Source: Sulfurihydrogenibium subterraneum DSM 15120 (GTDB taxonomy: Bacteria > Aquificota > Aquificia > Aquificales > Hydrogenothermaceae). From it: DNA of 64,000 nucleotides. The number at the start of each line of letters is the position of its first letter. The first letter of the stretch is position 1. The notes below the pieces were generated by a model. The model was not told where the DNA came from and made no database searches. It saw only the letters and a program-made list of their open reading frames with translations. The position numbers were made by a program, and so were the translations under genes. Positions 41,958 to 64,000 of this stretch are shown here, piece after piece. The DNA lies in contig NZ_JHUV01000008.1 of the NCBI RefSeq assembly GCF_000619805.1, forward strand, positions 310,001 to 374,000, read 5' to 3'.

Positions 41958-44900
41958 TTAACAGCTTTCTTCTTTCTTATCTATTGGTACAGCTGGACAT
42001 AGGTGAAGTTTTCTTTCCTCTCCTACAATCATGTAGTAAAGAACAGGAACGACTACTAACGTTAAAAGAGTTGAAGCTACTGTTCCAAATATTAAAGCTA
42101 TTGCAAGACCGTTAAAGATAGGGTCAAATATGATAACAAACGCACCAACCACTATAGCAGCAGCAGTCAGTAGAATAGGTCTTGTCCTTACTATTCCTGC
42201 TTCTAAAAGAGCTTCTTCTAAAGAGTATCCTTCTTTTAACTTCTGTTCTGTAAATTCAACAAGGAGTATAGAGTTTCTTAGTATTATTCCAGCTAATGCT
42301 ATAAATCCTATCATAGATGTCGCTGTGAAGAAAGCTCCCATCAATAAGTGTCCTGGTATTATACCAACCAATGTGAAAGGTATAGGAGACATTATTACAG
42401 CTGGCATTTTGAAAGATTTAAACCATCCAACAAGAAGGATATATAAAACAACTATAGCAACTGCAAATGCTATTCCCATATCTCTAAACGTCTCATAAGT
42501 AACTTGCCATTCTCCGTCCCATTTTACATAGTATTTATCTGTAAGCTCTGGCTGGTGAGTAAGGAGCTCTTCAACAGGTTTTCCATCTGGAGTTTTAATA
42601 TTTTTTATCTTATCCCAGAGGTCTAATATAGGATAAACAGGGCTACCTAATGTGTCGTTAACGTTTGCTATAACGTAAACAACAGGTTGTAGGTTCTTTC
42701 TATAAATATCACTTTCTGTAGAAGAAGGTTTAACACTCACTAATGAACCGATTGGGATACCGCCCATAGGTGTAGGTATCTTCATAGAAAGGATATCGTC
42801 AAGGCTTTGTCTGTACTTTTCATCAAGTCTAACAACAATATGAACTTGATTTAAGTCATCTGAAGAGTGGACTAATCCAACTTTATGTCCTGCTAAGGCT
42901 ATTCTTAAAGTTTTTACAATTACATCTTCAGATAAACCGTATCTTCTAACCTTTTCTCTATCTACATCAATCTGGTACTCTCTTTGTAGATAGTTTGTGT
43001 ATATTCCAACATCTATAACGCCTTTAGTGTTTTCAAAAATTTTTTTAATCTCGTTTGCAACTTGAAGCTGTCCTTTATAATCTGGACCGTAAACTTCTGC
43101 TACTATTGGAGATAAAACAGGTGGTCCTGGTGGAGGTTCTACAACTGCTACATATTTAGCTCCATTTTTCTTAGCTATCTCAGCTACTTTATCCCTTATC
43201 CTTTCAGCTATCTCGTGAGATTGATCTTTTCTGTCATGTTTACCTATAAGGTTAATATGGATTTGAGCTAAGTTAGGAGCTTCCCTTAGGTAATAGTGTC
43301 TTACTAATCCGTTAAAGTCAAAAGGTGCAGGTTGTCCTACGTATATTACATAGTTTTTAACTTCGTTTGTATTCTTAATGTAATCTGCAATCTGTTTTGC
43401 AACTCTATATGTTTCTTGAAGAGGCGTTCCTTCTGGCATATCTAAGACAACCTGTAATTCACTTTTGTTATCGTAAGGGAGCATTTTAACAAGAACGGCA
43501 CGGCTTACAATAAGCAATGCAGAAATAACTAAAAGCATACCTGCAAAACCTAAAAATAACCATCTTTTTACTCTACTTTGAAATAGTGGCATATAAACTG
43601 CATTGAAAAATCTTACCAAAAATCCTGCCCTTGCTTCATCTTCTTTTCCAAGAGACTCTGGGGACTCGTGATGTTCATCGTGTTTAAGCCATCTTATAGC
43701 AAGATAAGGTGTAAGTATAAATGCAAGTAGCATAGAGAAGAACATAGCAACAGAAGAGTTTATAGGTATTGGTCTCATATAAGGGCCCATAAGTCCAGTA
43801 ACAAAAGCCATAGGGAGTAATGCTACTATAACTGCAAACGTTGCAAGGATTGTAGGGTTTCCAACTTCATCTGTTGCAATAACAGCAGCTTCTTCTTGTG
43901 AAACTTTTCTCATAGAGAACCATCTGTGAATGTTTTCTAAAACAACGATAGAGTTGTCTACAAGGATACCAATTGAGAATATTAAAGCGAAAAGTGTAAC
44001 CCTGTTTAGAGAATAACCATACATCTCACTAAGGAAAAGAGCTATGGCTAAGGTAACAGGTATTGTTACTGCAACAATTAAAGACTCTCTAAATCCGAGA
44101 GTAACAGCTATAAGTAATACAATTGAAAAAGTAGCAATAAGTAAATGTTCTATAAGTTCGTTTGCTTTTTCAGAAGCTGTCTCTCCGTAGTTTCTTGTTA
44201 TTGTAAAGTTTATGTCAGAAGGGATTACTTTTCCCTTCATTTCGTTAAGTTTTTCTATTATGTTTTCTGCAACTACTACCGCATTACTACCAGTTTTTTT
44301 AGCAACTGCTATCGTTACTGCATTTTCTAAAGATTTATCTTTATTTCCAGAAGCCTGACCATATCCAAATTGGACGTAATTTTCTATCTCACCTTCACCT
44401 TCTTCAACTTTTGCTATATCTTTTACTTTGATAGGAGCGTTGTTATAGACAGCTACTACAATATTCTCTACGTCTTCTTTTGTCTTTAAAAACTGCCCTG
44501 TCCTTACTATGTATCTGTAATTATCTTTATCAAACTCTCCAGAAGGTAAAGAGAAATTTGCGCTTTCTAAGGCTTGAACTACTTGAGGAAGCATTATGTT
44601 ATAAGCATTTAGTTTAACAGGGTCAAATAAAACATCAATTTCTTTCGGTTTTGAACCTATGATTGTAGTTTCTGAAACGTTGTGAAGCTGTTTTATCTCA
44701 TCTTCTATAACCTCAGCTACCCTTCTTAAATCATAAGAGGAGTATTTATCACTATGTAAGGTAATTGAAAGTATAGGAACGTCATCTATAGATTTTGGTT
44801 TTATTATAGGGTCCATTGCCCCTTTAGGCATTTTATAGTAGTTTGACATAACTTTGCTGTATAGTTTTACAAGAGAGTCTTCAGGGTTTGCACCAACTTT

Positions 44901-45203
44901 AAATCTAACTGTAACTATTCCAAAACCATCTCCAGCGTAAGAGTAAACGTACTCAACGTCTGGAATCTCCCACATTAACTTTTCAAGAGGTTTTACAGCT
45001 AAACTGTTTACTTCTTGAGATTTTGCTCCCGGATATGGGATCATTATATCTATCATAGGAACAACAATTTGAGGCTCTTCATCTCTTGAAGTTGTAAATA
45101 CTGCAAAAAATCCAAGTAATAAAGATGCAACAACTAAAAGAGGTGTGAGTTTAGAGTTAAGAAAGTACTTTGCTACCCTTCCTGCCAGTCCGAGGTTCTC
45201 CAT
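41958..45203 (-). CDS. RND-family efflux pump, inner-membrane permease
   Basis: It is the proton-driven transporter of a tripartite efflux system. It has 1081 residues: a first membrane helix (LTPLLVVASLLLGFFAVFTT), a large periplasmic loop, helices 2-6 with SIGILVDNSIVVLENIHRW, a second periplasmic loop, then helices 8-12 with GFIALAGIILRNSILLVEF. The sequence is closer to HAE1/CzcA-like pumps than to AcrB. The substrate is unresolved. The C-terminus ends VPIDKKEESC. It is the last gene of the tolC-MFP-RND operon. Confidence 0.94.
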   Translation of the reverse strand: MENLGLAGRVAKYFLNSKLTPLLVVASLLLGFFAVFTTSRDEEPQIVVPMIDIMIPYPGAKSQEVNSLAVKPLEKLMWEIPDVEYVYSYAGDGFGIVTVRFKVGANPEDSLVKLYSKVMSNYYKMPKGAMDPIIKPKSIDDVPILSITLHSDKYSSYDLRRVAEVIEDEIKQLHNVSETTIIGSKPKEIDVLFDPVKLNAYNIMLPQVVQALESANFSLPSGEFDKDNYRYIVRTGQFLKTKEDVENIVVAVYNNAPIKVKDIAKVEEGEGEIENYVQFGYGQASGNKDKSLENAVTIAVAKKTGSNAVVVAENIIEKLNEMKGKVIPSDINFTITRNYGETASEKANELIEHLLIATFSIVLLIAVTLGFRESLIVAVTIPVTLAIALFLSEMYGYSLNRVTLFALIFSIGILVDNSIVVLENIHRWFSMRKVSQEEAAVIATDEVGNPTILATFAVIVALLPMAFVTGLMGPYMRPIPINSSVAMFFSMLLAFILTPYLAIRWLKHDEHHESPESLGKEDEARAGFLVRFFNAVYMPLFQSRVKRWLFLGFAGMLLVISALLIVSRAVLVKMLPYDNKSELQVVLDMPEGTPLQETYRVAKQIADYIKNTNEVKNYVIYVGQPAPFDFNGLVRHYYLREAPNLAQIHINLIGKHDRKDQSHEIAERIRDKVAEIAKKNGAKYVAVVEPPPGPPVLSPIVAEVYGPDYKGQLQVANEIKKIFENTKGVIDVGIYTNYLQREYQIDVDREKVRRYGLSEDVIVKTLRIALAGHKVGLVHSSDDLNQVHIVVRLDEKYRQSLDDILSMKIPTPMGGIPIGSLVSVKPSSTESDIYRKNLQPVVYVIANVNDTLGSPVYPILDLWDKIKNIKTPDGKPVEELLTHQPELTDKYYVKWDGEWQVTYETFRDMGIAFAVAIVVLYILLVGWFKSFKMPAVIMSPIPFTLVGIIPGHLLMGAFFTATSMIGFIALAGIILRNSILLVEFTEQKLKEGYSLEEALLEAGIVRTRPILLTAAAIVVGAFVIIFDPIFNGLAIALIFGTVASTLLTLVVVPVLYYMIVGEERKLHLCPAVPIDKKEESC

Positions 45204-45204
45204 C

Positions 45205-46368
45205 TTAACCTCCTAACCTGCATCCATCACAAGCTTTTTCTGTTTGAGATGCAACAATTCTGTCTCCTGGTTTCAAGCCCGATAAAACTTCTACACTGTC
45301 TCCATAATCTTCACCTAACTTTACGTAAGTTAAACGAATTACGTTATCCTGCCCTACAACGTACACAGCTGTAAGCTGTCCCCACTTAAACACGGCAGAT
45401 TTTGGTATCACAATTTTTTTAGATGCTGAGATTGGTATTAAAATTTTTCCATACATTCCAGAAGTTATAGTCTCTGAGTAAGGTATATCAAGCTTAACTT
45501 TAAAAGTCCTGTTCATCGGGTCTATGTTTGAATTTTTTTCTATAACTTTTCCTTCTACTTCTTTATCTCCAAGTTTAATTTTTAAAGTGTCTCCTACTTT
45601 TACTTTATCTAGTAAAGACTCATCTAAGTTAGCAACAAATTGGAGCTTTTTCTCTCCTATTATAAATATAGGCATTCCGGGAGCTGCCATATCTCCTTCA
45701 TCATTCATCTTCTTTATAACGTATCCATCAAAAGGAGCTTTTATAACAGCATATCCTGCCATTATATCTACTTGGTTAATTTTAGCTTTTACTTGGGATT
45801 CTTTTGCCTTTAGCTGAGCAAGTTTTGCATCTACCTGCTCTACCATAGATTTGGCAGCAATCATCTTAGTTTCTATTTCTTCTAACTGTTGTTTTGAAAC
45901 TGCATTTTCTTGGTAGAGATTTTTAAATCTTTCATAAGTCCTTTTTGCAAACTCGTAGTTTTCTAAAGCTGCTTTCCTTGCCGCCAACGCTTCATCTCTT
46001 GCTTTTGAAAGCTCTTCCAAACCTGCTAAAGCTTCATTTTTTTGTTGTTTTATCTCTGAATCATCAAGAACTGCTAAGGTTTGACCTGCTTTAACGTAAT
46101 CACCTTCGTTTACATAGATTTTTAGAATTCTACCCATCCATTTTGTTGATACTTTTGCGTTGTTCTCTGCAGTTACCATACCATCGGCTTTGTAAATGTT
46201 AGGTACCTCTTTTTCTTCAACAGTTAAAACTGGTAGCCCGCTTACAACTTTGCCTTTTTCTGTAGCTTCTCCAGGTTCTACTCTGTGGGATAAAAATCCT
46301 CCAAGCCAAAGTATGAAAATGGCAATAGGTAATACAAAAAAGAGTATAAATTTAACTGTCTTGTTCAT
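45205..46368 (-). CDS. RND efflux membrane-fusion (periplasmic adaptor) protein
   Basis: It links the inner-membrane pump to the TolC channel. It has 387 residues with an N-terminal anchor (KFILFFVLPIAIFILWLGGF), the lipoyl/barrel-sandwich halves (RILKIYVNEGDYVKAGQTLA and YAVIKAPFDGYVIKKMNDEG), a coiled-coil hairpin (about residues 105-200) and a beta-barrel domain. The C-terminus EKACDGCRLGG has an unusual CxxC that could bind a metal or form a disulfide. It lies 1 nt upstream of the RND gene. Confidence 0.93.
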   Translation of the reverse strand: MNKTVKFILFFVLPIAIFILWLGGFLSHRVEPGEATEKGKVVSGLPVLTVEEKEVPNIYKADGMVTAENNAKVSTKWMGRILKIYVNEGDYVKAGQTLAVLDDSEIKQQKNEALAGLEELSKARDEALAARKAALENYEFAKRTYERFKNLYQENAVSKQQLEEIETKMIAAKSMVEQVDAKLAQLKAKESQVKAKINQVDIMAGYAVIKAPFDGYVIKKMNDEGDMAAPGMPIFIIGEKKLQFVANLDESLLDKVKVGDTLKIKLGDKEVEGKVIEKNSNIDPMNRTFKVKLDIPYSETITSGMYGKILIPISASKKIVIPKSAVFKWGQLTAVYVVGQDNVIRLTYVKLGEDYGDSVEVLSGLKPGDRIVASQTEKACDGCRLGG

Positions 46369-46370
46369 CG

Positions 46371-47777
46371 CTACTCTCCTCTTTTTTGATTTTCTTGAAT
46401 TAGTAATCCTGATTGATATTTAAGCTCTAAAACCGATAACTGACAGTTATACTCTGCTTGAGCTTTATCAAACTTGATTTTATCAAACATAGTCTGTGTG
46501 TCTAAAAGGTCTATCATAGAAGCAAGCTGATTTTTATACCTTGTTTCTGTAACTTTTAAAATTTCTTCAGCATACTTTACGTTTTCTATTTCCGTTTTTA
46601 ATTTTTCTTTACTTGTTAGATAATCTTTGTAAGCTTTATATACGTTGAATTTTATAAACTCTTCAAATCCTTTTTCTTGCTGTTTGTAGTGGTCATACAT
46701 CTCCTTTGCACTTTTATACTTGTTAAAAGATTGAAAACCGTCAAATATTTTCCAGTTTAACGCAACTCCAGCCATCCACCACTTTCCTTCGTTCCCAAGC
46801 ATCCACTTTCCATCGTTAAGTTCATATGATGCAAAAGCTCCTATAGTAGGAAGTAAGTCAGCCTTATTAAAATCTACATATTTTTGAGCCATTTTTATTT
46901 TTTCTCTTACAGATAGAAGGTCTGACCTGTTAGATAAAGCATAGTTTTGATATTCTTCAACAGGTTTCTCTATGTTTTCACAAACAAGATTTCCTACAAC
47001 ATCTATCTCTGATGGGTCTGCTTTATCTAACCCCATTGCTAAAAGTAGTCCTCTTTTTGCTACTAAGTAGTTGTTTTCAGCTTCCTTTATCTTTGCTGAC
47101 ATCTCTGACATATAGACCTTAGCTCTAAGTTCATCAGCAGGAATAGCAAGACCATTTTTTACCATTGATTGAGCTGTTTGGTAATGTTTTTCTGCATCTT
47201 TGTAAGCCTGATTTGCAAGTTTTATAGCTTCTTTTGCAAGTAGAGCACCATAGTAAGCTTTTGATATATCGTATATTGCTTTTTCTTTAGACCTTGTGTA
47301 CTCGTTTTTTGCAGATTCGTAATCCCTTTTAGACATCTCTATACCAGAAGATATTTTTCCACCTGTGTAGATTGGAACTTGAAGCTCAAGCTTTGTTCTC
47401 CAGCTGTTTACCTCTGGATAGGAAGGTTTAGCAAAACTAATTCCCATACCGCTAAACATAGGATTTAAAGCAGTCATATCTACAAATTTTGAAGAAGTCA
47501 TAAAATCAAGCTTTTTTTGGCTCATAGTGTTCCACATCGCATATCCGGGTTCATTTGTTCTCATAAACATTTCACTAAAAGTTAAAGATGGATACATATA
47601 ACCCTTAGCAGACTGGTATGCATACTCTTTTGATTTAACCATCTTTTCTGATGCTTTTACTTCGTAGTTGTTTTGTAATCCTGTTTGAATAGCTTCTTCT
47701 AAAGATATTTCTCTGGCAAAAGATGAAGTAGTCAAAAGGGATATTATTAGCAAACCTAAACTTTTCTTTTTCCTCAT
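46371..47777 (-). CDS. TolC-family outer-membrane efflux protein
   Basis: It forms the outer-membrane exit duct of the efflux system. It has 468 residues with a signal peptide (SLGLLIISLLTTSSFA) and the two TolC repeats, rich in long coiled coil (ISLEEAIQTGLQNNYEVKAS; later KVTETRYKNQLASMIDLLDT). A TATAAT lies on the minus strand at 47820-47825, but no good -35 is visible, which would fit an activator-dependent promoter. The upstream Crp-family gene is a candidate regulator. Confidence 0.92.
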   Translation of the reverse strand: MRKKKSLGLLIISLLTTSSFAREISLEEAIQTGLQNNYEVKASEKMVKSKEYAYQSAKGYMYPSLTFSEMFMRTNEPGYAMWNTMSQKKLDFMTSSKFVDMTALNPMFSGMGISFAKPSYPEVNSWRTKLELQVPIYTGGKISSGIEMSKRDYESAKNEYTRSKEKAIYDISKAYYGALLAKEAIKLANQAYKDAEKHYQTAQSMVKNGLAIPADELRAKVYMSEMSAKIKEAENNYLVAKRGLLLAMGLDKADPSEIDVVGNLVCENIEKPVEEYQNYALSNRSDLLSVREKIKMAQKYVDFNKADLLPTIGAFASYELNDGKWMLGNEGKWWMAGVALNWKIFDGFQSFNKYKSAKEMYDHYKQQEKGFEEFIKFNVYKAYKDYLTSKEKLKTEIENVKYAEEILKVTETRYKNQLASMIDLLDTQTMFDKIKFDKAQAEYNCQLSVLELKYQSGLLIQENQKRGE

Positions 47778-47864
47778 TCTCTTAACCTCTTTATTAGAAT
47801 ATTAGAATATTAATATATTATTATACCACTATCAAATAGAACTTTTCTGATTTTTGGCATATTT

Positions 47865-48566
47865 TTAGCTGACTAAATCTTGCAGGTAATCTATATCAAA
47901 TATCTCTATTTTTCCTCTTTCTGTATCTAAAATACCTTCTTTTTTCCATCGGCTTATAACTCTTATGGCTGTTTCTACGGTCGTTCCAGCCATCTCTGCT
48001 ATATCTTGACGGGTTATAGGAGCATTTATTACAACATTATCTCCTTCTTTTTTTCCTATTTTTTCTACTAACTCTAAAATTAATGTAGCAATTCTTCCTT
48101 CTACCTTTTCTACAGCAAGACTCTTTAATCTATCGTAAGCCTCAAGGGTTTTCTTTGTAGAATCACAAGTTATTCTTACAGCTAAAGCAGGATACATTAA
48201 AAGAAGTTTTAAAAAGTCTTGGTTTGATATGTACAAAACTTTTGAATCTATTAATGTTTGAGCTGAGTAGGTACTTGCAGGCGTAGAATCTTTCATAACA
48301 AGCCAGCCAAAGCTCTCTCCTTTCGTTGCCAATCTCAAAATAACGGTTTTACCATCAGATGTCTCTTTGATTAATTTTATTATCCCATCAACAACAAAGT
48401 GTATCCCCGGCTCTTTATCTCCCTCATAAAAGATGTACTCACCTTTTTTATACTCTTTATATATAAAAAACTTTTCTATATTTTTAAGTTCTTCTTCCTT
48501 TAAGCCTGAAAAAAGTGGTATCTCCTTTAAAATACTTAATTTATCTATGTTTTTGATTTCTCTCAT
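47865..48566 (-). CDS. Crp/Fnr-family transcriptional regulator
   Basis: It has 233 residues. A cyclic-nucleotide-binding-like beta-roll (about residues 20-130: GEYIFYEGDKEPGIHFVVDG) is followed by a dimer helix and a winged-helix DNA-binding domain (TRQDIAEMAGTTVETAIRVI, about 180-199, then RWKKEGIL). It lacks the N-terminal cysteine cluster of FNR, so oxygen sensing by an iron-sulfur cluster is unlikely. The recognition-helix pattern ETAIRVI resembles the E--SR core of Crp/Fnr proteins, with A-I-R. It is 12 bp downstream of the MlaD gene. Confidence 0.9.
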   Translation of the reverse strand: MREIKNIDKLSILKEIPLFSGLKEEELKNIEKFFIYKEYKKGEYIFYEGDKEPGIHFVVDGIIKLIKETSDGKTVILRLATKGESFGWLVMKDSTPASTYSAQTLIDSKVLYISNQDFLKLLLMYPALAVRITCDSTKKTLEAYDRLKSLAVEKVEGRIATLILELVEKIGKKEGDNVVINAPITRQDIAEMAGTTVETAIRVISRWKKEGILDTERGKIEIFDIDYLQDLVS

Positions 48567-48578
48567 ACTCTCACCTCT

Positions 48579-50129
48579 TTATCTTACTTTAGGTAAGGAA
48601 CCTAAAAGGTACTTTAAGTAATTGTCGGTAAATACAAATCCTCCACCTATGTAAACACCTCTAACAGAACTGTTTAAAAGGTCTGAACCACCTACTTTTA
48701 CGAAGATAGGATATTTATTAAATCTATACTCTAAACCAAAATCAAACTGTGGATTGTTAGGCTGATTTACTAAATCTTTTCTATTAAATCTGTAAACATC
48801 AGCTATGAGCTTTAGATTAGGACTTAAAACCAAATCTCCTCCTAAGTCAGCTGATGAGTCTTTTATACCAAACCTTGCCCAAAGCTGGTATTCTCCAAGG
48901 TTTAAAATCTTTCTTGCATATTGTAAATCAAAGAGTATTCCGTACTTTTTAGTAACGTATGTTGTCGTAGTCCCGTTTGCTGTTATTTCTTCTTTTTTAT
49001 CTACGTATCCTTGAGAGTTAGAAAGAATTCCTACATAGTAGTATCTATCATCACCTGGTGGTATGTACTTAAAGGCAGCTCCTGCTTTAGAATCTTTGTT
49101 TCCTGTATGTTTTTCTCCTTGCATTATAACTTTAAGGTTTGATTCTTTAACAATTTTAAATGGTTCTGCAAATGACTTTACACCTTCGTTAACGTTGTTA
49201 TAAAGACTGTCTTCGTTTACAAGTTTACCTAAAGTTCCTTTTCCTTCGTTAACTTTTGCAAGGATTTGGTTTAAGTTGTCTGAAGCTTTTTTTATGTTTT
49301 CTATACTTAGTTTTAAATCTTGCCTGTTTTCGCTTACAGCTTTTTCTATTTCTGTTGCTGCCTTGTCAACAGAGTCAAGGGTTTTAGGTGCTTTTTCTTT
49401 TAATGCTACTGATAAATCTTTTAGATTTGCTATTAACTTCCTTATATCTTCTCTATTTTCATCTGTTATATTTTTCGTATTTTCCAATGTTTTGTCTAAA
49501 TTTTCAGCTATACTTGGTAGCTTTTGTCTAAGTTCTGCTGTTATAGCCCTAATGTTTGCTATAGCTTGTCTTACGTCTTCTTTGTTCTCTACTACGACCT
49601 CATTTGTATTATATGCAAATTTATCAAAGTCTTCTATAAGTTTTTTTAATCTTTCATCTCCTAATGCTTTGTTTAAGTTATCCATCAACTCTCCAAATTT
49701 TTTAGCTGACAACTGAACTTGGTCTATCATCTCTTCGGTAGATGCCACTTTAGTGGTATTTTCAATAACTCCTCCTGAAGCCAGCTCCCCAAAAGATGGA
49801 TTACCCGGTTCTACGTAAATGTACTTATCTCCCATTAAACCGTATGTCCTTATTACAACTTTAGCATCTTTGTAAACAGGTATTTCCTGTTTAACTTTAA
49901 ACTTTACCTTAACTTTTCCTTGTTCAAAGGTTATCTCTTCTACTTTTCCAGCTTTTACACCTTGAACTTGAACGTCAGCTCCTTGAGAAAGTCCTTGAGC
50001 ATCTGTAAAGTAAACAAAATATTCTTTATAGTTTTGACCAAACTCTTTTCCGCTGAATTTTATTATTAAAAAGCCTAACAAACCAGCTATTACTAATACA
50101 AATATACCTACTTTTACAGAGTTATTCAT
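48579..50129 (-). CDS. MlaD-like MCE protein with helical repeats and a C-terminal barrel-like domain
   Basis: MCE proteins carry lipids between the inner and outer membrane as part of ABC systems. It has 516 residues: an N-terminal anchor (VGIFVLVIAGLLGFLIIKFS), an MCE domain (about residues 35-120, DAQGLSQGADVQVQGVKAGK), then three related helical repeats beginning ENKEDVRQA, ENREDIRKL and ENRQDLKLS (about 175-310), and a final ~170 residues of aromatic-rich strands (YYYVGILSNS, YQLWARFGIKD, FDFGLEYRFNKYPIFVKVG) resembling an outer-membrane barrel. The plain E. coli MlaD has 183 residues. An mlaE permease is at the window end. Confidence 0.85.
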   Translation of the reverse strand: MNNSVKVGIFVLVIAGLLGFLIIKFSGKEFGQNYKEYFVYFTDAQGLSQGADVQVQGVKAGKVEEITFEQGKVKVKFKVKQEIPVYKDAKVVIRTYGLMGDKYIYVEPGNPSFGELASGGVIENTTKVASTEEMIDQVQLSAKKFGELMDNLNKALGDERLKKLIEDFDKFAYNTNEVVVENKEDVRQAIANIRAITAELRQKLPSIAENLDKTLENTKNITDENREDIRKLIANLKDLSVALKEKAPKTLDSVDKAATEIEKAVSENRQDLKLSIENIKKASDNLNQILAKVNEGKGTLGKLVNEDSLYNNVNEGVKSFAEPFKIVKESNLKVIMQGEKHTGNKDSKAGAAFKYIPPGDDRYYYVGILSNSQGYVDKKEEITANGTTTTYVTKKYGILFDLQYARKILNLGEYQLWARFGIKDSSADLGGDLVLSPNLKLIADVYRFNRKDLVNQPNNPQFDFGLEYRFNKYPIFVKVGGSDLLNSSVRGVYIGGGFVFTDNYLKYLLGSLPKVR

Positions 50130-50131
50130 TG

Positions 50132-51127
50132 CTATTTCTCCATTATTGTTTCTTCCACTTTCATTCCAAAGTGTCTTCCAGCTTCTTCTACGTAGCCTAC
50201 TATTTCATCTCCGACCTTTAAATCTACTACCGATATAGGAGTTCCATCTGGCTTTACAACTCTTATAGTTTCTGCGTTTTGTAGGACAGCAGAGAGTTTT
50301 TTCCCTTCATATTCTGCCTCTATAAGAAGCATAGGTCTTCTTTCCACTTTTGCCCTTCCTACATAAACAACTCTTCCGTTTCCATTAAAGTCGTATATCA
50401 TCACTTCTTTTCCAGAAGAAAGCTCACTTAAGTAAGCTGTTTTTCCATTTGGTATTCTGGTATACATGTGAACTGCTCCAGCATTTACTCTGAAAGGTCT
50501 TGATGCTACGTACTCTGACTCTTCCGTTTCTCCGTGGACTAAAATCATTCCTGCTGAAGAGTTGCCTACAAGCATTCCTTCACCTCTTTTGAGTAAAGAT
50601 GTTGTATCTACTGCTACTCTATCACCCATACCTACAGGTTTTATGTTTACTACTTTTGCTTTTACCATGTTTAATTTTTCTGTATCTTCTTTTATAATTT
50701 TCGCTACTTTTTTTATTTCGTTCAAGTTATCTGTTTTAAGGACTACACCTCTTACACCTTTTTCAAGGATACCTACCGATGTTTTTGCTTCTTCTGCATC
50801 TTTTACTATAGAGTATATGTTGGGAGATTGTGCTATAAGGTTTTCAAGTGGGATAATAGTCCAGTCTGTAGTCTGAACTATAACTTTTTTACCACTTTTT
50901 GCCAAGTTTGCTGCTTTTTCTTCGTCTTGTTTATTTTCTATTTTTACTATAACAAAGTCTTCTGTAAGATTTCCTTCTTTATCTTGAAGTATTAGTTTTA
51001 CTCTACCTAATTTTTTTATTTCGTTTGCTTTTTCTTCTTCAATAAGTATGTAATCTACACCAGATTCTATCGCAGTAGTTATTGCAGTTTTTGGTAATCC
51101 TCTTGCATCAAGAATAAACTCTTTCAT
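50132..51127 (-). CDS. 3-dehydroquinate synthase II (archaeal-type)
   Basis: This family makes 3-dehydroquinate from the DKFP/aspartate-semialdehyde-derived precursor using NAD, replacing the DAHP-based AroB route, best known in Methanocaldococcus. Its 331 residues show the family features VKPVGMGDRVAVDT (here KPVGMGDRVAVDTTSLLK), GEGMLVGNSSAGMILVHGET, ASRPFRVNAGAVHMYTRIP and the C-terminal RHFGMKVEETI. The gene overlaps nothing and lies 2 bp upstream of the mlaD-like gene. Whether the organism also has AroB cannot be seen here. Confidence 0.88.
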   Translation of the reverse strand: MKEFILDARGLPKTAITTAIESGVDYILIEEEKANEIKKLGRVKLILQDKEGNLTEDFVIVKIENKQDEEKAANLAKSGKKVIVQTTDWTIIPLENLIAQSPNIYSIVKDAEEAKTSVGILEKGVRGVVLKTDNLNEIKKVAKIIKEDTEKLNMVKAKVVNIKPVGMGDRVAVDTTSLLKRGEGMLVGNSSAGMILVHGETEESEYVASRPFRVNAGAVHMYTRIPNGKTAYLSELSSGKEVMIYDFNGNGRVVYVGRAKVERRPMLLIEAEYEGKKLSAVLQNAETIRVVKPDGTPISVVDLKVGDEIVGYVEEAGRHFGMKVEETIMEK

Positions 51128-51386: not shown

Positions 51387-53375
51387 CTACAATACTGTTG
51401 CTAATTTTTTTAATTTTTCTAACTTATCTCTTACTTGGGCTGCTTTTTCAAACTCCCAGTTTTTAGCATAATCCCACATCTGTTTTTCTAACTTTTGTAT
51501 CTCTTTAAGTAAATCTTCTTCTGTAGATATGTCTTCAGGTATCTCTTGATAAAGTTCTAATATTCCAAGTTCTTCTAAAGATATTAAATCTTTTATCTCT
51601 TTTTTTACTGTTTTTGGTGTGATACCGTGTTTTTCGTTATACTCTTGCTGTAATTTTCTTCTTCTGTTTGTCTCTTCTATCGTTTCTACCATAGCAGGTG
51701 TTAGTTTGTCTGCATAGAGTATTGCTTTTCCGTTTTCGTTCCTTGCAGCTCTTCCTATTGTCTGGATAAGGGCTGTTTTTGACCTTAAAAATCCTTGCTT
51801 ATCTGCATCTAAAACTGCCACTAAAGAAACTTCTGGCATATCAAGTCCTTCTCTGAGTAGGTTTACTCCTACTATAACGTCATACTTTCCTTCTCTAAAC
51901 TCTTTTATTATCTTTGCTCTCTCTATAGTGTCTATCTCTGAGTGAAGATAAACAGCTTTTATATCTCTTTCTTGCAAATAATCTGCCAAATGTTCAGCCA
52001 TTTTTTTTGTAAGTGTGATTACCAAGGCTCTTTCGTTTCTCTCTTTTACTTTCCATATTTCGTTTATTAAGTCATCTATCTGTCCTTCCGTTTTCTTTAC
52101 TTCTATAACAGGGTCTAAAAGTCCTGTTGGTCGTATTATCTGCTCTACTATCACGCCTTTTGACCTTTCTATCTCCCACTGGGCAGGTGTTGCTGATACG
52201 TAAATAGCCTTCTGGATTTTACTAACAAACTCTTCAAACTTTAAAGGTCTGTTATCGTAAGCTGATTTCATTCTCCAACCGTATTTTACAAGGTTTTCTT
52301 TCCTTGCCAAATCTCCGTTGTACATAGCTTTTATCTGTGGAATTGTTACGTGAGATTCATCTATAATAAGTAAAAAGTCTTCTGGAAAGTAGTCTATAAG
52401 CGTGTAAGGAGGTTCTCCTGGTTTTCTACCGTCAAAATATCTTGAGTAGTTCTCTATTCCTTTACAGGTTCCAAGTTCTAACATCATTTCTATATCGTAA
52501 TTTGTCCTTTGCCAAAGTCTATTTGCCTCAATCTCTTTTCCTTGTTTTCTAAACTCTTCTACTTCTATTTCTAAATCTTTCTGTATCTGCTTTATAGCCT
52601 CTATCATATCAGGTCTTGGTATTACGTAGTGGCTTGCAGGAAATATTACAGTCCTTTCTAACTTTCTTTTTACGTATCTGTTGAATATATCTATTTCGGT
52701 TATGTTTTCTATTTCATCTCCAAAAAACTCAACTCTAATAATTATATCTTCTGTGTAAGCTGGAAGTATCTCTACTGTATCGCCTTTTACTTTAAACGTT
52801 CCTCTTTTTAAAGAAAAGTCATCTCTCTGATACTGGAGCTCCACGAGTTTTCTAAGTAGGGTTTGACGGTCTATTTCCATTCCTACGTAAAGTTGAAGTC
52901 TTAATTTCTCATAAAATTCAGGGGTTCCAAGACCGTATATACAGGATACGGAAGCAACTACTATCGTATCTGGCCTTTCTATCAAACTTCTTGTTGCAGA
53001 GTGTCTAAGTCTGTCTATAGAGTCGTTAATAGCACTGTCTTTTTCTATGTAAAGGTCTTTTTGAGGAATGTATGCCTCTGGTTGATAGTAATCGTAGTAA
53101 GAGACAAAATATTCTACTGCATTATCAGGGAAAAGCTCTTTTATCTCTCTATACAGCTGTGCCGCTAAAGTTTTGTTGTGAGAAAGTATAAGGGTAGGTC
53201 TCCCATACTTTTCTATAAGGTTTGCTATCGTAAAGGTTTTTCCTGTTCCTGTAGCTCCAAGTAAAACCTGCTCATTTACACCTGACTTTAGATTTTCATA
53301 CAGCTGTTTTATAGCTTTTGGTTGGTCTCCAGTAGGTTCAAAAGGTGCTTTCAGTTTAAATATTGACTTATTCAT
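51387..53375 (-). CDS. uvrB: UvrABC excinuclease subunit B
   Basis: UvrB is the damage-verifying helicase core of nucleotide excision repair. It has 662 residues. Walker A is [16 protein letters not shown]; the beta-hairpin region [27 protein letters not shown] box [10 protein letters not shown], the helicase motifs [16 protein letters not shown] and QTIGRAARN, and the C-terminal UVR motif ([20 protein letters not shown]) are present. Its first 8 nt overlap hepT. uvrC is at the opposite end of the window. Confidence 0.98.
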
Positions 53376-53826
53376 CTTTTAACTTTCCTAAAAAGTTTTC
53401 AAAAAAATTAATTTCATCGTAAATCTTATTAAAAGTTTTTGCAATTTTGTATTTTTCATCTTCGTATTCGTGGACAAGAATATTTCTTAGCTCTCTTAAC
53501 TCAAACCACTTTTCTTTTGTTATTCCAAGTTCTAACTTTTCTAACTTATTTAAAATATCTACCATCGTCAAATTTTCAACATTTTCTCCCTTAATATACA
53601 GATAGCTTTTAACAAGTTTTGCTAAAGAATCCTGCAACTTTGAAAATCTATAAACTATCTGGTCTAAAATTGCTAAAAGATAATCATCTTCCAAGATTGT
53701 ATCAATTTTTTCTTCATCTAAAGGTAAAAAGCCTTTATCTTTTAAAGTATTAAATGCATTTTTTAATCTATCTATATGTTTCTGAGTTTCTTGATAGGTT
53801 TGCCTATATATCAATTGAGCATTCAA
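53368..53826 (-). CDS. hepT: HepT-like HEPN toxin
   Basis: It has 152 residues, mostly helical (HEPN fold). The motif [14 protein letters not shown] near residue 110-120 contains the R-x4-H-x-Y catalytic pattern of HepT ribonucleases. In MntA-HepT modules the antitoxin AMPylates this Tyr to silence the toxin. The start is TTG 53826, overlapping the mntA stop (TTGA), and the end overlaps the uvrB start, so all are likely one transcript. Antitoxin first, toxin second is the usual order. Confidence 0.82.
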
Positions 53827-54131
53827 ATTAGTCTAACTCCCGTATTTTTTGCTTCTAAACATATAATTTCTTCACAGTCGTAAGGTCTAATAATCAAATC
53901 TATTTTTTGGTCGCCTATTTTTAGTTTTAATCTTGATAAATATTTTATTTGTTTTTCAACTATATTCTCTAAATTATGAGTTTCTATATAAATATCAATA
54001 TCTCCACCTTTTCTGCTTTGGTTAGCTCTACTTCCAAAAATCCATAATCTTACATCTTTGCCAAAAATATCTAATGCAAGGTCTTTTATCGCTTGAATTT
54101 CTTCTTTTGAAAGTCTTAATTTATCTTCCAT
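53823..54131 (-). CDS. mntA: MntA-like minimal nucleotidyltransferase (antitoxin)
   Basis: It has 102 residues from ATG 54131; a longer frame reaches upstream into ppx/gppA, but the homology starts at MEDKLRLSKEEI. The nucleotidyltransferase motif is LWIFGSRANQSRKGGDIDIYI (G-S-x10-D-x-D; shown in two parts: GSRANQSRKG, GDIDIYI). The later Asp in KIDLIIRPYD completes the metal site. MntA neutralises HepT by adding AMP. No clear Shine-Dalgarno sequence; the start is 8 nt after the ppx stop. Confidence 0.82.
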   Translation of the reverse strand: MEDKLRLSKEEIQAIKDLALDIFGKDVRLWIFGSRANQSRKGGDIDIYIETHNLENIVEKQIKYLSRLKLKIGDQKIDLIIRPYDCEEIICLEAKNTGVRLI

Positions 54132-54139
54132 TTTTAAAA

Positions 54140-55060
54140 CTATAACTGTTGTAAGTAGGTTAGAAGTAATCCGTGTCTTATGCCCCACTCACTTATCTTT
54201 ATTGTATCTTTTTGGAACGTTTCCATTGCAACTTTAAATATAGCTATCCCTGATACAATAGCTTCAGCTCTCTTGTCTTCTATCATAGGTATAGATTTTC
54301 TCTGACTTACTGTGATTGAAGAGAGTTTCTCAAACCACTTTTTTATACTGTCGTAAGTTAAGGTTGAACCGTGGACTTTTTTTGAGTCGTACGGATATAG
54401 ACTTTTTTCAAGTGCTACAACAGTTGTTATAGTACCACCAAGACCAACTAATTGATTTGCATCTTTCATCTCTTTGTAAGCAGTATCTATCTGAGCTTTT
54501 AAAAATTCTTGTAAAGAGTCCAATTCATGAGGTTTAGGTGGGTCTGATTTTATAAATCTTTCTGTAAGGTTAACTATCCCAAAAGGAAAGGATATTGCTT
54601 TTATTAATTTATCTTTTTCTCCGTAAGAAAATTCAGTACTTCCTCCACCTTGGTCAATTACTACAAATTTATCTTGAATGTTTAGAGCTTTAGATGTTGC
54701 TAAAAATGAAAGTGAAGCTTCTTCCTCTCCTGATATTACTTTTACATCTACTCCAAGCTGTTTTACTCTTTCTAAGAATTCTGGTGCGTTTTTTGCTTCT
54801 CTACAGGCTTGAGTTGCAACTGCTAATTTCTTATCTGGATGATACTCTTTTGCTATTAAAACATACTCTCTTAAAACAGATAAGGTTTCTTCCATTGCTT
54901 CTTTTTGCAGGTAGCCTGTCTCTTTTAGCTTTCTGCCAAGAGCTGTAATTCTTCCGACAGAAAAAATTTCGTTAAAACTGCCATCTCCATGAACAGCTAC
55001 TATTAGCATACGGGTTGAGTATGTCCCAATATCAATGAGTACTACTATTTTAGGCTTCAT
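54140..55060 (-). CDS. Ppx/GppA-family exopolyphosphatase/pppGpp phosphatase
   Basis: It has 306 residues with the actin-like ASKHA fold: VVLIDIGTYSTRMLIV (phosphate 1), VVIDQGGGSTEFSYG (phosphate 2) and GLGGTITTVVALE. Members hydrolyse polyphosphate or pppGpp; at this length (about 300) there is no C-terminal HD domain, so it is the short Ppx2/GppA-type. The specific substrate cannot be decided. Its 5' end overlaps the upstream nucleotidyltransferase gene by 11 nt. Confidence 0.9.
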   Translation of the reverse strand: MKPKIVVLIDIGTYSTRMLIVAVHGDGSFNEIFSVGRITALGRKLKETGYLQKEAMEETLSVLREYVLIAKEYHPDKKLAVATQACREAKNAPEFLERVKQLGVDVKVISGEEEASLSFLATSKALNIQDKFVVIDQGGGSTEFSYGEKDKLIKAISFPFGIVNLTERFIKSDPPKPHELDSLQEFLKAQIDTAYKEMKDANQLVGLGGTITTVVALEKSLYPYDSKKVHGSTLTYDSIKKWFEKLSSITVSQRKSIPMIEDKRAEAIVSGIAIFKVAMETFQKDTIKISEWGIRHGLLLTYLQQL

Positions 55061-61197: not shown

Positions 61198-62280
61198 ATG
61201 GACTATCAAAAAGAATTACAAAAAATTAGAAAAGAGATCGATAATATAGACCAAACCATATTACAACTTCTAAATAAAAGAGCTTTACTTGCAAAACAAG
61301 TAGGAGAGATAAAGAAAAAGAACAACCTTCCTATATTCGTTCCAACAAGAGAAAAAGAAATTTTTGAAAGATTAGAAAAGTTAAATACAGGACCCCTTTC
61401 AAACGATGTAATAAAACATATCTTTAGAGAGATTATATCTGCGTGTAGAAGTGTAGAAGAAAACATAAAAGTTGCTTACCTTGGACCAAAGGCTACATTT
61501 ACCCATCAAGCAAGTTTAAAGTACTTTGGAAGCAGTGTTGAACACATCCCGGTTTCAACTATAAAAGATGTCTTTGAAGAGATAGCTAAGAAAAAAGTAA
61601 ACTACGGCGTTGTCCCAGTTGAAAACACGATAGAAGGTGTTGTTAACTACACCCTTGATATGTTTTTAGACTATGATTTAAAGATAATCGGAGAGGTTAT
61701 ATTAGAAATATCCCTTCATTTAATGAGTATAAACCCAAACATAAACGAAATCCAGAGAATATACAGCCATAAGTTTGCAATAGCAGAATGTAGAGATTGG
61801 CTACAAAAGAACATGCCTAATGCCCAAATAATAGAAGTAGAAAGTACTGCAAAAGCAGCAGAGATGGCAAGAGATGACTATGAATCTGCAGCCATAGCAA
61901 GCGAATCAGCTGCAACAGTTTACGGACTTCACATCTTAGAAAGAAAGATAGATAAACATTTATACAACTATACAAGATTTTTAATCATAGGAAATGAGAT
62001 ACCACAACCTACAGGAAAAGACAAAACAACCTTTATCTTTTCTGTAAAAAATCAGGTAGGAGCTCTCTACAAGGCATTAGAGCCTTTCTACAAAAATCAG
62101 ATAAATATGACAAAAATTGAGTCAAGACCTTCAAAAAAAGAAGCATGGGATTACATATTCTTTACAGATATAGAAGGTCATATTGAAGATGAAAAAGTTT
62201 CTAAAACATTACAAGAGCTTAAAAACAATGTTCCATTTTTTAAAGTTTTAGGCTCTTATCCTAAAGCTCAGGATGTTTAG
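61198..62280 (+). CDS. pheA: bifunctional chorismate mutase/prephenate dehydratase
   Basis: This enzyme converts chorismate to phenylpyruvate on the way to phenylalanine. It has 360 residues: an AroQ chorismate mutase domain (residues 1-88, IDNIDQTILQLLNKRALLAK), a prephenate dehydratase domain (VAYLGPKATFTHQASLKYFG; GVVPVENTIEGVVNYTLDMF; YTRFLIIG) and a C-terminal ACT domain (TTFIFSVKNQVGALYKAL, with the ESRPSKK motif for Phe feedback). The end overlaps the convergent lptF/G gene by 20 nt. Confidence 0.97.
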   Translation: MDYQKELQKIRKEIDNIDQTILQLLNKRALLAKQVGEIKKKNNLPIFVPTREKEIFERLEKLNTGPLSNDVIKHIFREIISACRSVEENIKVAYLGPKATFTHQASLKYFGSSVEHIPVSTIKDVFEEIAKKKVNYGVVPVENTIEGVVNYTLDMFLDYDLKIIGEVILEISLHLMSINPNINEIQRIYSHKFAIAECRDWLQKNMPNAQIIEVESTAKAAEMARDDYESAAIASESAATVYGLHILERKIDKHLYNYTRFLIIGNEIPQPTGKDKTTFIFSVKNQVGALYKALEPFYKNQINMTKIESRPSKKEAWDYIFFTDIEGHIEDEKVSKTLQELKNNVPFFKVLGSYPKAQDV

Positions 62281-63328
62281 TTTTAAACATTAAGTAAAAT
62301 CCTACTAATAAAAATAAAATATCAAAAGAAAATATAAAGTAGTATGGTATATTCCCAACTGAAGCTATAGCAGATACTATTGATGTTCCGTACCAGTATA
62401 GCACTGTAGATAAAAAGCCAGCTAAGACTATAAACTTATTTTTTCTCCATATAAAACCAACTGCAAAAACAGTTAAAACAAAAGGAGATATTACAGTTGC
62501 AAGCTTTTGATAAAATTTACTCCAAAAATAAGATGCATCGTATCCATAGTTTTGGGCTATTTTTGCAACTTTATAAAGTTGAGTGATAGATACAGGTTTT
62601 TTTTCTTTAATAAGTTTTTTTATCTTATCTGGGTCAATACTTACATATACTCTCTTTTCATCAAAATTATTCACTTTTACATCTTCTATGTACTTTACAA
62701 TAATCTCTCTTCCTTTAAAAAGGATTAAGCTATTTGGCTCTACTTTAAAACTTTCAGCTTCCCATCTATTAGTAGGTAAAAAGTTATCATCCATTTTTAT
62801 CAGAACTATCTCTTTCCCAACTGTTTTTTCTAAATCAAAAAAATCAAAATATATAAAATTTTTTTCATCTAATTTAAGCCAAAGATTGTAAGCTATAGCC
62901 TTTTCATCCTCTAAAGGCTGATTTTTTAGCTTTTGATAAGTTTCTATATAAATTTTGTTTGATTTAGGCATTAAGAGCTCAAGATTTAAAATCTGTAAAA
63001 AAGTTATAAAAATTGAGAAAATTATTATCCTGTTAGATATGTAGTTTATAGGTATACCGTTAAGCAGTATAGGGTAGATTTCCCTTGTTTTCACAATCTC
63101 ATTTACTACAACAAAAGCAGATATTATTAAAGAAATTGGAACTATGTAATAAAAATTCTCCGGGAGTTTTGCCAAAACATAAACTAATATTAAACTAAAA
63201 TCCTGAACTTTTGATTTTCTAAGAATTTCTATAAGTTCAACTAAAGCAGAAACTAAAGAGAAAGCTGGGAATATTATAAAGAAGTATACTGTAAGTTTTT
63301 GATATATATATCTATCTAATATTCTCAT
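62261..63328 (-). CDS. LptF/LptG-family lipopolysaccharide export permease
   Basis: LptF and LptG are the membrane parts of the ABC exporter that lifts LPS from the inner membrane. It has 355 residues with the family start MRILDRYIYQKLTVYFFIIF, three N-terminal helices, a periplasmic beta-jellyroll (about residues 130-240) and three C-terminal helices. It cannot be assigned to F or G alone. The gene is 9 bp downstream of mlaE. Confidence 0.9.
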   Translation of the reverse strand: MRILDRYIYQKLTVYFFIIFPAFSLVSALVELIEILRKSKVQDFSLILVYVLAKLPENFYYIVPISLIISAFVVVNEIVKTREIYPILLNGIPINYISNRIIIFSIFITFLQILNLELLMPKSNKIYIETYQKLKNQPLEDEKAIAYNLWLKLDEKNFIYFDFFDLEKTVGKEIVLIKMDDNFLPTNRWEAESFKVEPNSLILFKGREIIVKYIEDVKVNNFDEKRVYVSIDPDKIKKLIKEKKPVSITQLYKVAKIAQNYGYDASYFWSKFYQKLATVISPFVLTVFAVGFIWRKNKFIVLAGFLSTVLYWYGTSIVSAIASVGNIPYYFIFSFDILFLLVGFYLMFKTKHPEL

Positions 63329-63337
63329 TTGTTCTCA

Positions 63338-64000
63338 TTAGTAAATGAGAGCTGTTAAGAAGTAATCAAGTATCAGTATTAAAACAGAAGCAACTACCAC
63401 TGCTGTCGTTGTAGACCTTCCAACTCCTTCTGCTCCTCCCCTTGTGATATATCCAAAATAAGAGGTTATAGTAGTCAGTACAGCTCCAAATACTGCTGCC
63501 TTATAAAGTCCACCAAATATATCCTTTAACTCTGTGAAATCCTTTAATTTTTCCCAATACATATACTCATTTATCCCATATATGTAAACGGAGGTAAAAT
63601 AACCACCTATTACACCACTTACATAAGATAAAACAGTTAACGCAGGAACCATTACTATAGCAGCGATGAGCCTTGGAGAAACAAGATAACTAAATGGATT
63701 TACAGCCATAACTTCAAGGGCATCTATCTGCTCTGTTATTCTCATAGTACCGATATTTGCTGCAATTGCAGAACCAGACCTTGCAGTTACAAGAAGAGCA
63801 ACTAAAACTGGAGAAAGCTCCCTTGCCAAAGAAAGAGAAACGAGAGCACCCATCAAATACTCTGCGTTAAATTTATGAAATGTTGGATAAGTTTCAACAA
63901 CCAAAACACCACCGGTAAAAAAACCTGTTAAAATTATAAGTAAAGCGGCATTAACTCCTATATCTTCCATATATTTTAGTATATGTTTTAATTTTGGAAA
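63338..64000 (-). CDS. mlaE: MlaE-family ABC lipid-transport permease (5' end beyond the window)
   Basis: MlaE is the membrane permease of the MCE-type ABC lipid transporter. The reading frame is open to the window edge; it reads FPKLKHILKYMEDIGVNAAL, so the ATG at 63970 is probably internal, and the complete protein (usually 240-260 residues) begins outside. Visible signatures are ETYPTFHKFNAEYLMGALVS, LARELSPVLVALLVTARSGSAIAANIGTMRITEQIDALEVM and GYITRGGAEGVGRSTTTAVV (quoted in parts). Its MCE partner may be the MlaD-like protein at 48579-50129. Confidence 0.93.
   Translation of the reverse strand, partial: FPKLKHILKYMEDIGVNAALLIILTGFFTGGVLVVETYPTFHKFNAEYLMGALVSLSLARELSPVLVALLVTARSGSAIAANIGTMRITEQIDALEVMAVNPFSYLVSPRLIAAIVMVPALTVLSYVSGVIGGYFTSVYIYGINEYMYWEKLKDFTELKDIFGGLYKAAVFGAVLTTITSYFGYITRGGAEGVGRSTTTAVVVASVLILILDYFLTALIY

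Follow-up and report, generated by a model that had tools for sequence, protein, structure and literature searches.

Can a single protein chain connect the inner membrane of a bacterium with its outer membrane, and so help to carry phospholipids across the periplasm where no shuttle proteins are found? This question is raised by a gene in the window, the 64,000-nucleotide stretch of Sulfurihydrogenibium subterraneum DNA analyzed here, whose 516-residue product has an MCE domain near its N-terminus (Table 1). A sequence-only reading had described this protein as an inner-membrane anchor followed by an MCE domain, repeats, and amphipathic strands, and each of these parts has been confirmed by Pfam, by AF2 models, and by shuffles.

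The design is not categorically new. A minimal MlaEFD system with a long, barrel-bearing MlaD has already been described in Veillonella parvula by modeling and fractionation (Grasekamp et al. 2023; PMC10665443), and the long MlaD studied here is a further member. Judged by the text of that paper, the V. parvula protein likewise has a transmembrane helix, one MCE domain, a long helical region, and a C-terminal 10-stranded barrel (a predicted one in our protein), and MlaE and MlaF are present there whereas MlaA and MlaC are absent. The same text gives a protein of 419 amino acids with ∼150 helical residues, compared with 516 amino acids and ∼200 helical residues here, where 43-residue repeats and scattered genes are also found.

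Two other systems share some of these parts. Escherichia coli MlaD also has a transmembrane helix and an MCE domain (27% identity over 150 residues; 38% for the MlaE partner), but it is just 183 amino acids long, carries neither the long helical region nor a barrel, and works with MlaA, MlaB, and MlaC in the six-component MlaABCDEF system. The Mce1A-F proteins of Mycobacterium smegmatis form an MCE ring with a helical tunnel, but as a heterohexamer in which, according to the text of PMC10665443, no chain carries a full barrel.

Table 1. Features of the long mlaD gene and its mlaE partner (positions in the window; residues of MlaD)
Feature	Position	Strand	Basis
mlaD gene, long (beta-barrel) MlaD, 516 aa	48579..50129	(-)	ORF, ATG start; Pfam, NCBIfam
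N-terminal inner-membrane helix, residues 3-25	50055..50123	(-)	AF2/DSSP, hydropathy
MCE (MlaD) domain, residues 34-109	49803..50030	(-)	PF02470 E 4.8e-20; Foldseek
Periplasmic helical region, residues 131-328	49146..49739	(-)	AF2 (confidence mostly below 50), weak PF11887
Three 43-residue helical repeats, residues 172-300	49230..49616	(-)	Self-comparison
C-terminal outer-membrane-type beta-barrel (predicted), residues 331-500	48630..49139	(-)	Domain model, fold matches, amphipathicity, conservation
Beta-signal-like last strand YIGGGFVF, residues 493-500	48630..48653	(-)	Alignment; consensus in text of PMC10945584
Conserved C-terminal tail, predicted short helix, residues 501-516	48582..48629	(-)	Model and alignment
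mlaE permease gene, single copy, partner	63338..64081 (window ends at 64000)	(-)	38% identity to E. coli MlaE

MCE domain and repeated helices

The Pfam assignment of the MCE domain agrees with its predicted fold, which Foldseek matches to E. coli MlaD (5uw8_B) with a TMt of 0.89. Against TIGR04430, the NCBIfam equivalog for short MlaD, the protein scores 86.6 bits, below the cut-off of 135. No other MCE gene was found in the 1.61-Mb genome, which is 99.95% complete, and the closest named MlaD records are from Sulfurihydrogenibium (88%, 87%, and 80% identity).

Between the MCE domain and the C-terminal strands lies the helical region, in which three repeats of ∼43 residues had been proposed. 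Self-comparison bears this out. When residues 129-300 are aligned with themselves, identity has a sharp maximum at a shift of 43 (31 of 129 positions), a level reached at any shift from 30 to 59 by none of 2000 plain shuffles and by none of 2000 shuffles that preserved the hydrophobic pattern. The units 172-214, 215-257, and 258-300 share 15, 12, and 10 of 43 residues in pairwise comparison, and 43 is the best shift in 48 of 75 MlaD homologues. A tunnel whose length changes in exact 43-residue steps can be dismissed, as the 75 aligned rows show only loose quantization of the distance between G109 and G296. Most rows fall within 178-198, but three have 153-154, two have 166, six have 171, and one has 229.

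AF2 modeling of the full-length protein with 74 homologues gave a mean pLDDT of 66.7, with 176 residues below 50. The MCE domain is confident and the C-terminal domain mostly so, but the helices are not, with block means mostly between 31 and 55 over residues 131-328. Low confidence in the helical region is likewise reported in the text on V. parvula MlaD (PMC10665443). Pfam matches in this part of the chain, including one to PF11887 (Mce4_CUP1), all fall below their cut-offs. It had also been suggested that, unlike short MlaD, a single chain could span from the inner to the outer membrane, and the length is sufficient: at 0.15 nm per residue, ∼198 helical residues would extend up to 30 nm if straight, which by this arithmetic would cross the periplasm. 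A fold search with the full-length model returned M. smegmatis Mce1 (chain 8fed_B) as its best match, with an E-value of 1.1e-11 and poor superposition. The rows listed in that search were all MCE-domain matches and uninformative on the barrel, and the C-terminal domain was therefore modeled alone.

The predicted barrel and its C-terminal end

Modeled by themselves, residues 322-516 (195 residues) gave a pLDDT of 88.6 and a pTM of 0.80. DSSP assigns 12 strands to residues 331-500 of this model, followed by a short helix at 502-510. Nine of the 12 strands alternate clearly between polar and hydrophobic residues and three hardly do (375-384, 387-395, and 362-371); the mean difference between faces was reached by none of 5000 within-strand shuffles. 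Because both strands of segment 375-395 are hardly amphipathic, we read this segment as a protruding hairpin, which would leave 10 core strands compared with the DSSP count of 12. The spacing of the turns, with long gaps after residues 446 and 482, would fit up-and-down strands with both ends on the periplasmic side. Chance amphipathicity or a misread frame is ruled out by these shuffles together with phylum-wide conservation.

Foldseek matches to this domain are mostly outer-membrane proteins with modest E-values, only two of them at 0.001 or better. VIA-align was used to rescore 1000 chains from Foldseek; its top seven rows (Z 15.6-11.2) consist entirely of proteins of the outer membrane and a designed transmembrane barrel. 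The matches include OpcA (Z 15.6, 3.2 Å, 145 residues), the designed barrel TMB10_163 (Z 14.0, 2.7 Å, 133 residues), Pla (Z 13.6, 5.7 Å, 170 residues), pOmpT (Z 11.6), and OmpT (Z 10.5, 4.0 Å, 152 residues). OpcA, OmpT, and Pla are ten-stranded barrels. Their fold recurs in the model of the C-terminal domain (Z 15.6-10.5), but identity is only 9%-11%, and we claim no sequence relationship; to our knowledge, they do not transport lipids.

Soluble up-and-down barrels also appear among the structural neighbors, scoring below the best outer-membrane proteins (OssO, Z 10.8; CpeS, Z 9.6; Ycf58, Z 8.6), and alternating strands alone fit either type of barrel. The C-terminal domain might accordingly be a soluble, lipocalin-like periplasmic barrel that has taken over the carrier role of MlaC. 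The best fold matches oppose this, as does the distribution of conserved residues. Conservation in at least 90% of the 75 rows is reached by 11 of 51 strand positions on the polar face, compared with one of 47 on the hydrophobic face (Fisher P 0.004); averaged over all strand positions, majority-residue conservation shows no difference between the two faces (Mann-Whitney P 0.40). The conserved polar-face positions include R419, G421, G430, D432, G480, G495, and G497; the hydrophobic-face position is F500. Arginine and aspartate are usual inside membrane barrels, whereas invariant examples on a solvent-exposed surface would be odd. Because the near-invariant strand residues sit on the polar face, this face is taken as the barrel interior. 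With the last strand also resembling a beta-signal in 74 of 75 rows, we consider a soluble carrier quite improbable.

The C-terminal domain is very probably, on the strength of its model, an outer-membrane-type barrel, presumably closed and with its hydrophobic face outward. The predicted fold and its matches support the earlier proposal of an MCE protein fused to such a barrel.

If the domain is a barrel in the outer membrane, lipid could in principle pass through it. That the barrel is retained across phyla might be cited, indirectly, for a real lipid channel formed or opened by six barrels, with lipid passing the barrel domain. The predicted lumen is filled and polar, with R419 and D432 invariant and Q403 and D444 near-invariant in the presumed interior, and the text on V. 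parvula considers that barrel too narrow to let lipid through (Grasekamp et al. 2023; PMC10665443). Passage of lipid inside the barrel is unlikely, and a channel made by six barrels seems to us very improbable. Because its presumed inward face carries invariant arginine, aspartate, and glycine residues, the barrel looks like an anchor and not a conduit.

The sequence-only reading had called the barrel a guess on the grounds that the strands end without a terminal phenylalanine. The observation stands, as the protein ends in LGSLPKVR, but the doubt drawn from it does not. The absence of a terminal phenylalanine is explained by the internal position of a beta-signal-like motif, with a short conserved tail after it. 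An internal GxGxxF closes the last strand in 74 of 75 homologues, and F500, at the end of that predicted strand, is phenylalanine in 74 of 75 rows. The beta-signal consensus given in the text of PMC10945584 is polar-x-G-x-x-(aromatic/hydrophobic)-x-(aromatic/hydrophobic), which the last strand of MlaD fits from G495 onward in 74 of 75 rows; the polar first position is tyrosine or phenylalanine in 72, and the fit there is imperfect. The sole exception among the 75 is L140, a protein in an Acidobacteria-titled record, whose chain stops near this point.

In all but one of the 75 rows a tail of 15-18 residues follows F500; K506 is kept in 72 rows and Y507 in 74, and a near-invariant pattern, D-[NDE]-[DY]-[LI]-K-Y-[LM]-[LI]-G, follows the motif in 74 of 75 homologues. 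Some barrel MlaDs are said in the text of PMC10665443 to have "an additional helical extension," at a site that this text does not specify. The tail could be an amphipathic helix lying on the inner leaflet of the outer membrane, on the periplasmic side, and serving as a lipid entry or exit that joins the tunnel to the membrane, so that barrels anchor and tails gate. We offer this as a speculation that is rather unlikely to be correct.

Distribution and partner genes

Used as a query, the long MlaD found matches in 127 of the 136 genomes of the phylum, including all 30 genera. Four of these matches stop short of residue 500, of which three run into contig ends (G035, G054, and G121) and one is to a shorter, diverged protein (G113). 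The latter locus (L055; G113:C2:48500-57000) represents a fourth family, with a 452-residue MCE protein whose C-terminus does not align to the query beyond residue 348. In G094 the match is only in pieces, with internal stops. MlaE was found in 126 of the 136 genomes, and MlaA and MlaC were each found in none of the 136, the source genome included, with positive controls in E. coli and Caulobacter. Most of the nine genomes with no MlaD match and the ten with no MlaE match are fragmented, and not all are poor: G106, at 95% completeness, gave no MlaD.

A search for the same domain order across Aquificota had been proposed as a check, and the orthologues keep the whole order. The order recurs at loci titled Deltaproteobacteria, Denitrovibrio, Deferribacteraceae, and Acidobacteria, and the C-terminal profile (A3) matched 70 of 395 genomes sampled from the phylum of a locus titled Desulfovibrionales. 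Judging from these sequence matches, the long barrel MlaD is not special to Aquificota. A short MlaD with an unrelated tail is ruled out by the conservation of the C-terminal domain into other phyla. One record titled as an Acidobacteria MAG (RFFP01000012.1, L109) carries an MlaD that matches that of G040:C20, a contig assigned to the same taxonomic order as the source, and its title looks mislabeled. Our literature search found no account of an MCE/MlaD barrel in Aquificota; the main text of PMC10665443 does not contain the string "Aquific," and its 103 barrel sequences may well include members of the phylum.

The source genome has one MlaE and one clear MlaF, and mlaD, mlaE, and mlaF are unlinked. 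The mlaE gene sits 13 kb from mlaD, and mlaF, on another contig (L148), encodes a protein 53% identical to the operonic MlaF of Desulfurobacteriaceae (family f5), compared with 38% for the next paralogue. The genes mlaE, mlaF, and mlaD are adjacent in all 10 fetched loci of family f5 (named records titled Desulfurobacteriaceae and Thermovibrio) and in 11 of 12 loci from outside Aquificota; at the twelfth (L136), mlaF and mlaD are adjacent and no mlaE was found. Among the fetched loci of families f1-f3, none showed linkage to the long MlaD, and two (L113 and L114) gave only a weak ATPase match of 28%-30% identity. The linkage of the genes in related lineages supports the view that MlaD, MlaE, and MlaF form one complex. 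According to the text of PMC10665443, its searches for MlaF relied on synteny; the scattered genes of Aquificales suggest that such searches would miss MlaF there.

Several neighboring or related loci deserve mention in their own right. An LptF/LptG-family permease gene (62261-63328, reverse strand; PF03739, E 6e-37) adjoins mlaE, so that two envelope-lipid permease genes lie side by side. Upstream of mlaD is a gene for 3-dehydroquinate synthase II (50132-51127, reverse strand; PF01959, E 6.4e-128), a type best known from archaea. The downstream region (41958-48566, reverse strand) encodes a Crp/Fnr-type regulator together with an efflux set of TolC, membrane-fusion, and RND components, the last two recognized by eye. 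Also by eye, a small nucleotidyltransferase-like gene that overlaps a small HEPN-like gene (53368-54188, reverse strand) is reminiscent of an MNT-HEPN pair. Some Aquificota (L056, L057, L059, and L060) have a second MCE system, lacking in the source genome, in which genes for a longer MlaE, an MlaF, and a barrel-less MCE protein of ∼300 residues are adjacent; this MlaE is ∼80-100 residues longer than that of the source genome, with the extra residues N-terminal in L056. At L062 (G131:C2:203000-216500), mlaE-mlaF-mlaD occurs twice in tandem, ∼7.2 kb apart and with equal scores, which reflects either a duplication or an assembly artifact.

A proposed bridge between the membranes

We consider it highly probable that this protein serves as the long MlaD in a minimal phospholipid transporter of just three components (MlaEFD), in which a hexameric tunnel is anchored in the outer membrane by its barrels and replaces MlaC and MlaA. 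The hexamer, the tunnel, the anchoring in both membranes, and transport with its direction are proposed by analogy. The inner membrane would probably hold an MlaE2-MlaF2 ABC transporter with six copies of MlaD seated on it; the MCE domains would form a pore ring, and the 43-residue-repeat helices would bundle into a hydrophobic tunnel through the periplasm. The sequence-only reading had suggested that one chain could act as its own lipid tunnel; by analogy, the tunnel would be made of the hexameric ring of MCE domains together with the helices. Each chain would anchor this tunnel in the outer membrane through its own 10-stranded barrel. The long MlaD would thereby stand in for two components that are missing here, the shuttle MlaC and MlaA, a lipoprotein of the outer membrane, and lipid would probably move between the two membranes through the helical tunnel and not the barrels. 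Inward transport is the common proposal for Mla, and by the same argument the direction here would most likely be inward.

The barrel could instead anchor a protein with some other job, such as stiffening the envelope or handling a substrate other than phospholipid, and not serve to maintain lipid asymmetry. MCE systems elsewhere do carry other lipids, and the scattering of the genes in Aquificales would be easier to accept on this account. It is unlikely, however, given that orthologues of MlaE and MlaF are present and share an operon with mlaD in related lineages, and that V. parvula mutants show lipid-asymmetry phenotypes, as described in the text of PMC10665443.

As a probable component of an MlaEFD transporter, the long MlaD extends the one-chain bridge to the majority of a thermophilic phylum whose genomes yielded neither MlaA nor MlaC. 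It thus bears on how phospholipids cross the periplasm without shuttles, and the MlaD proteins of these thermophiles may be well suited to structural work.
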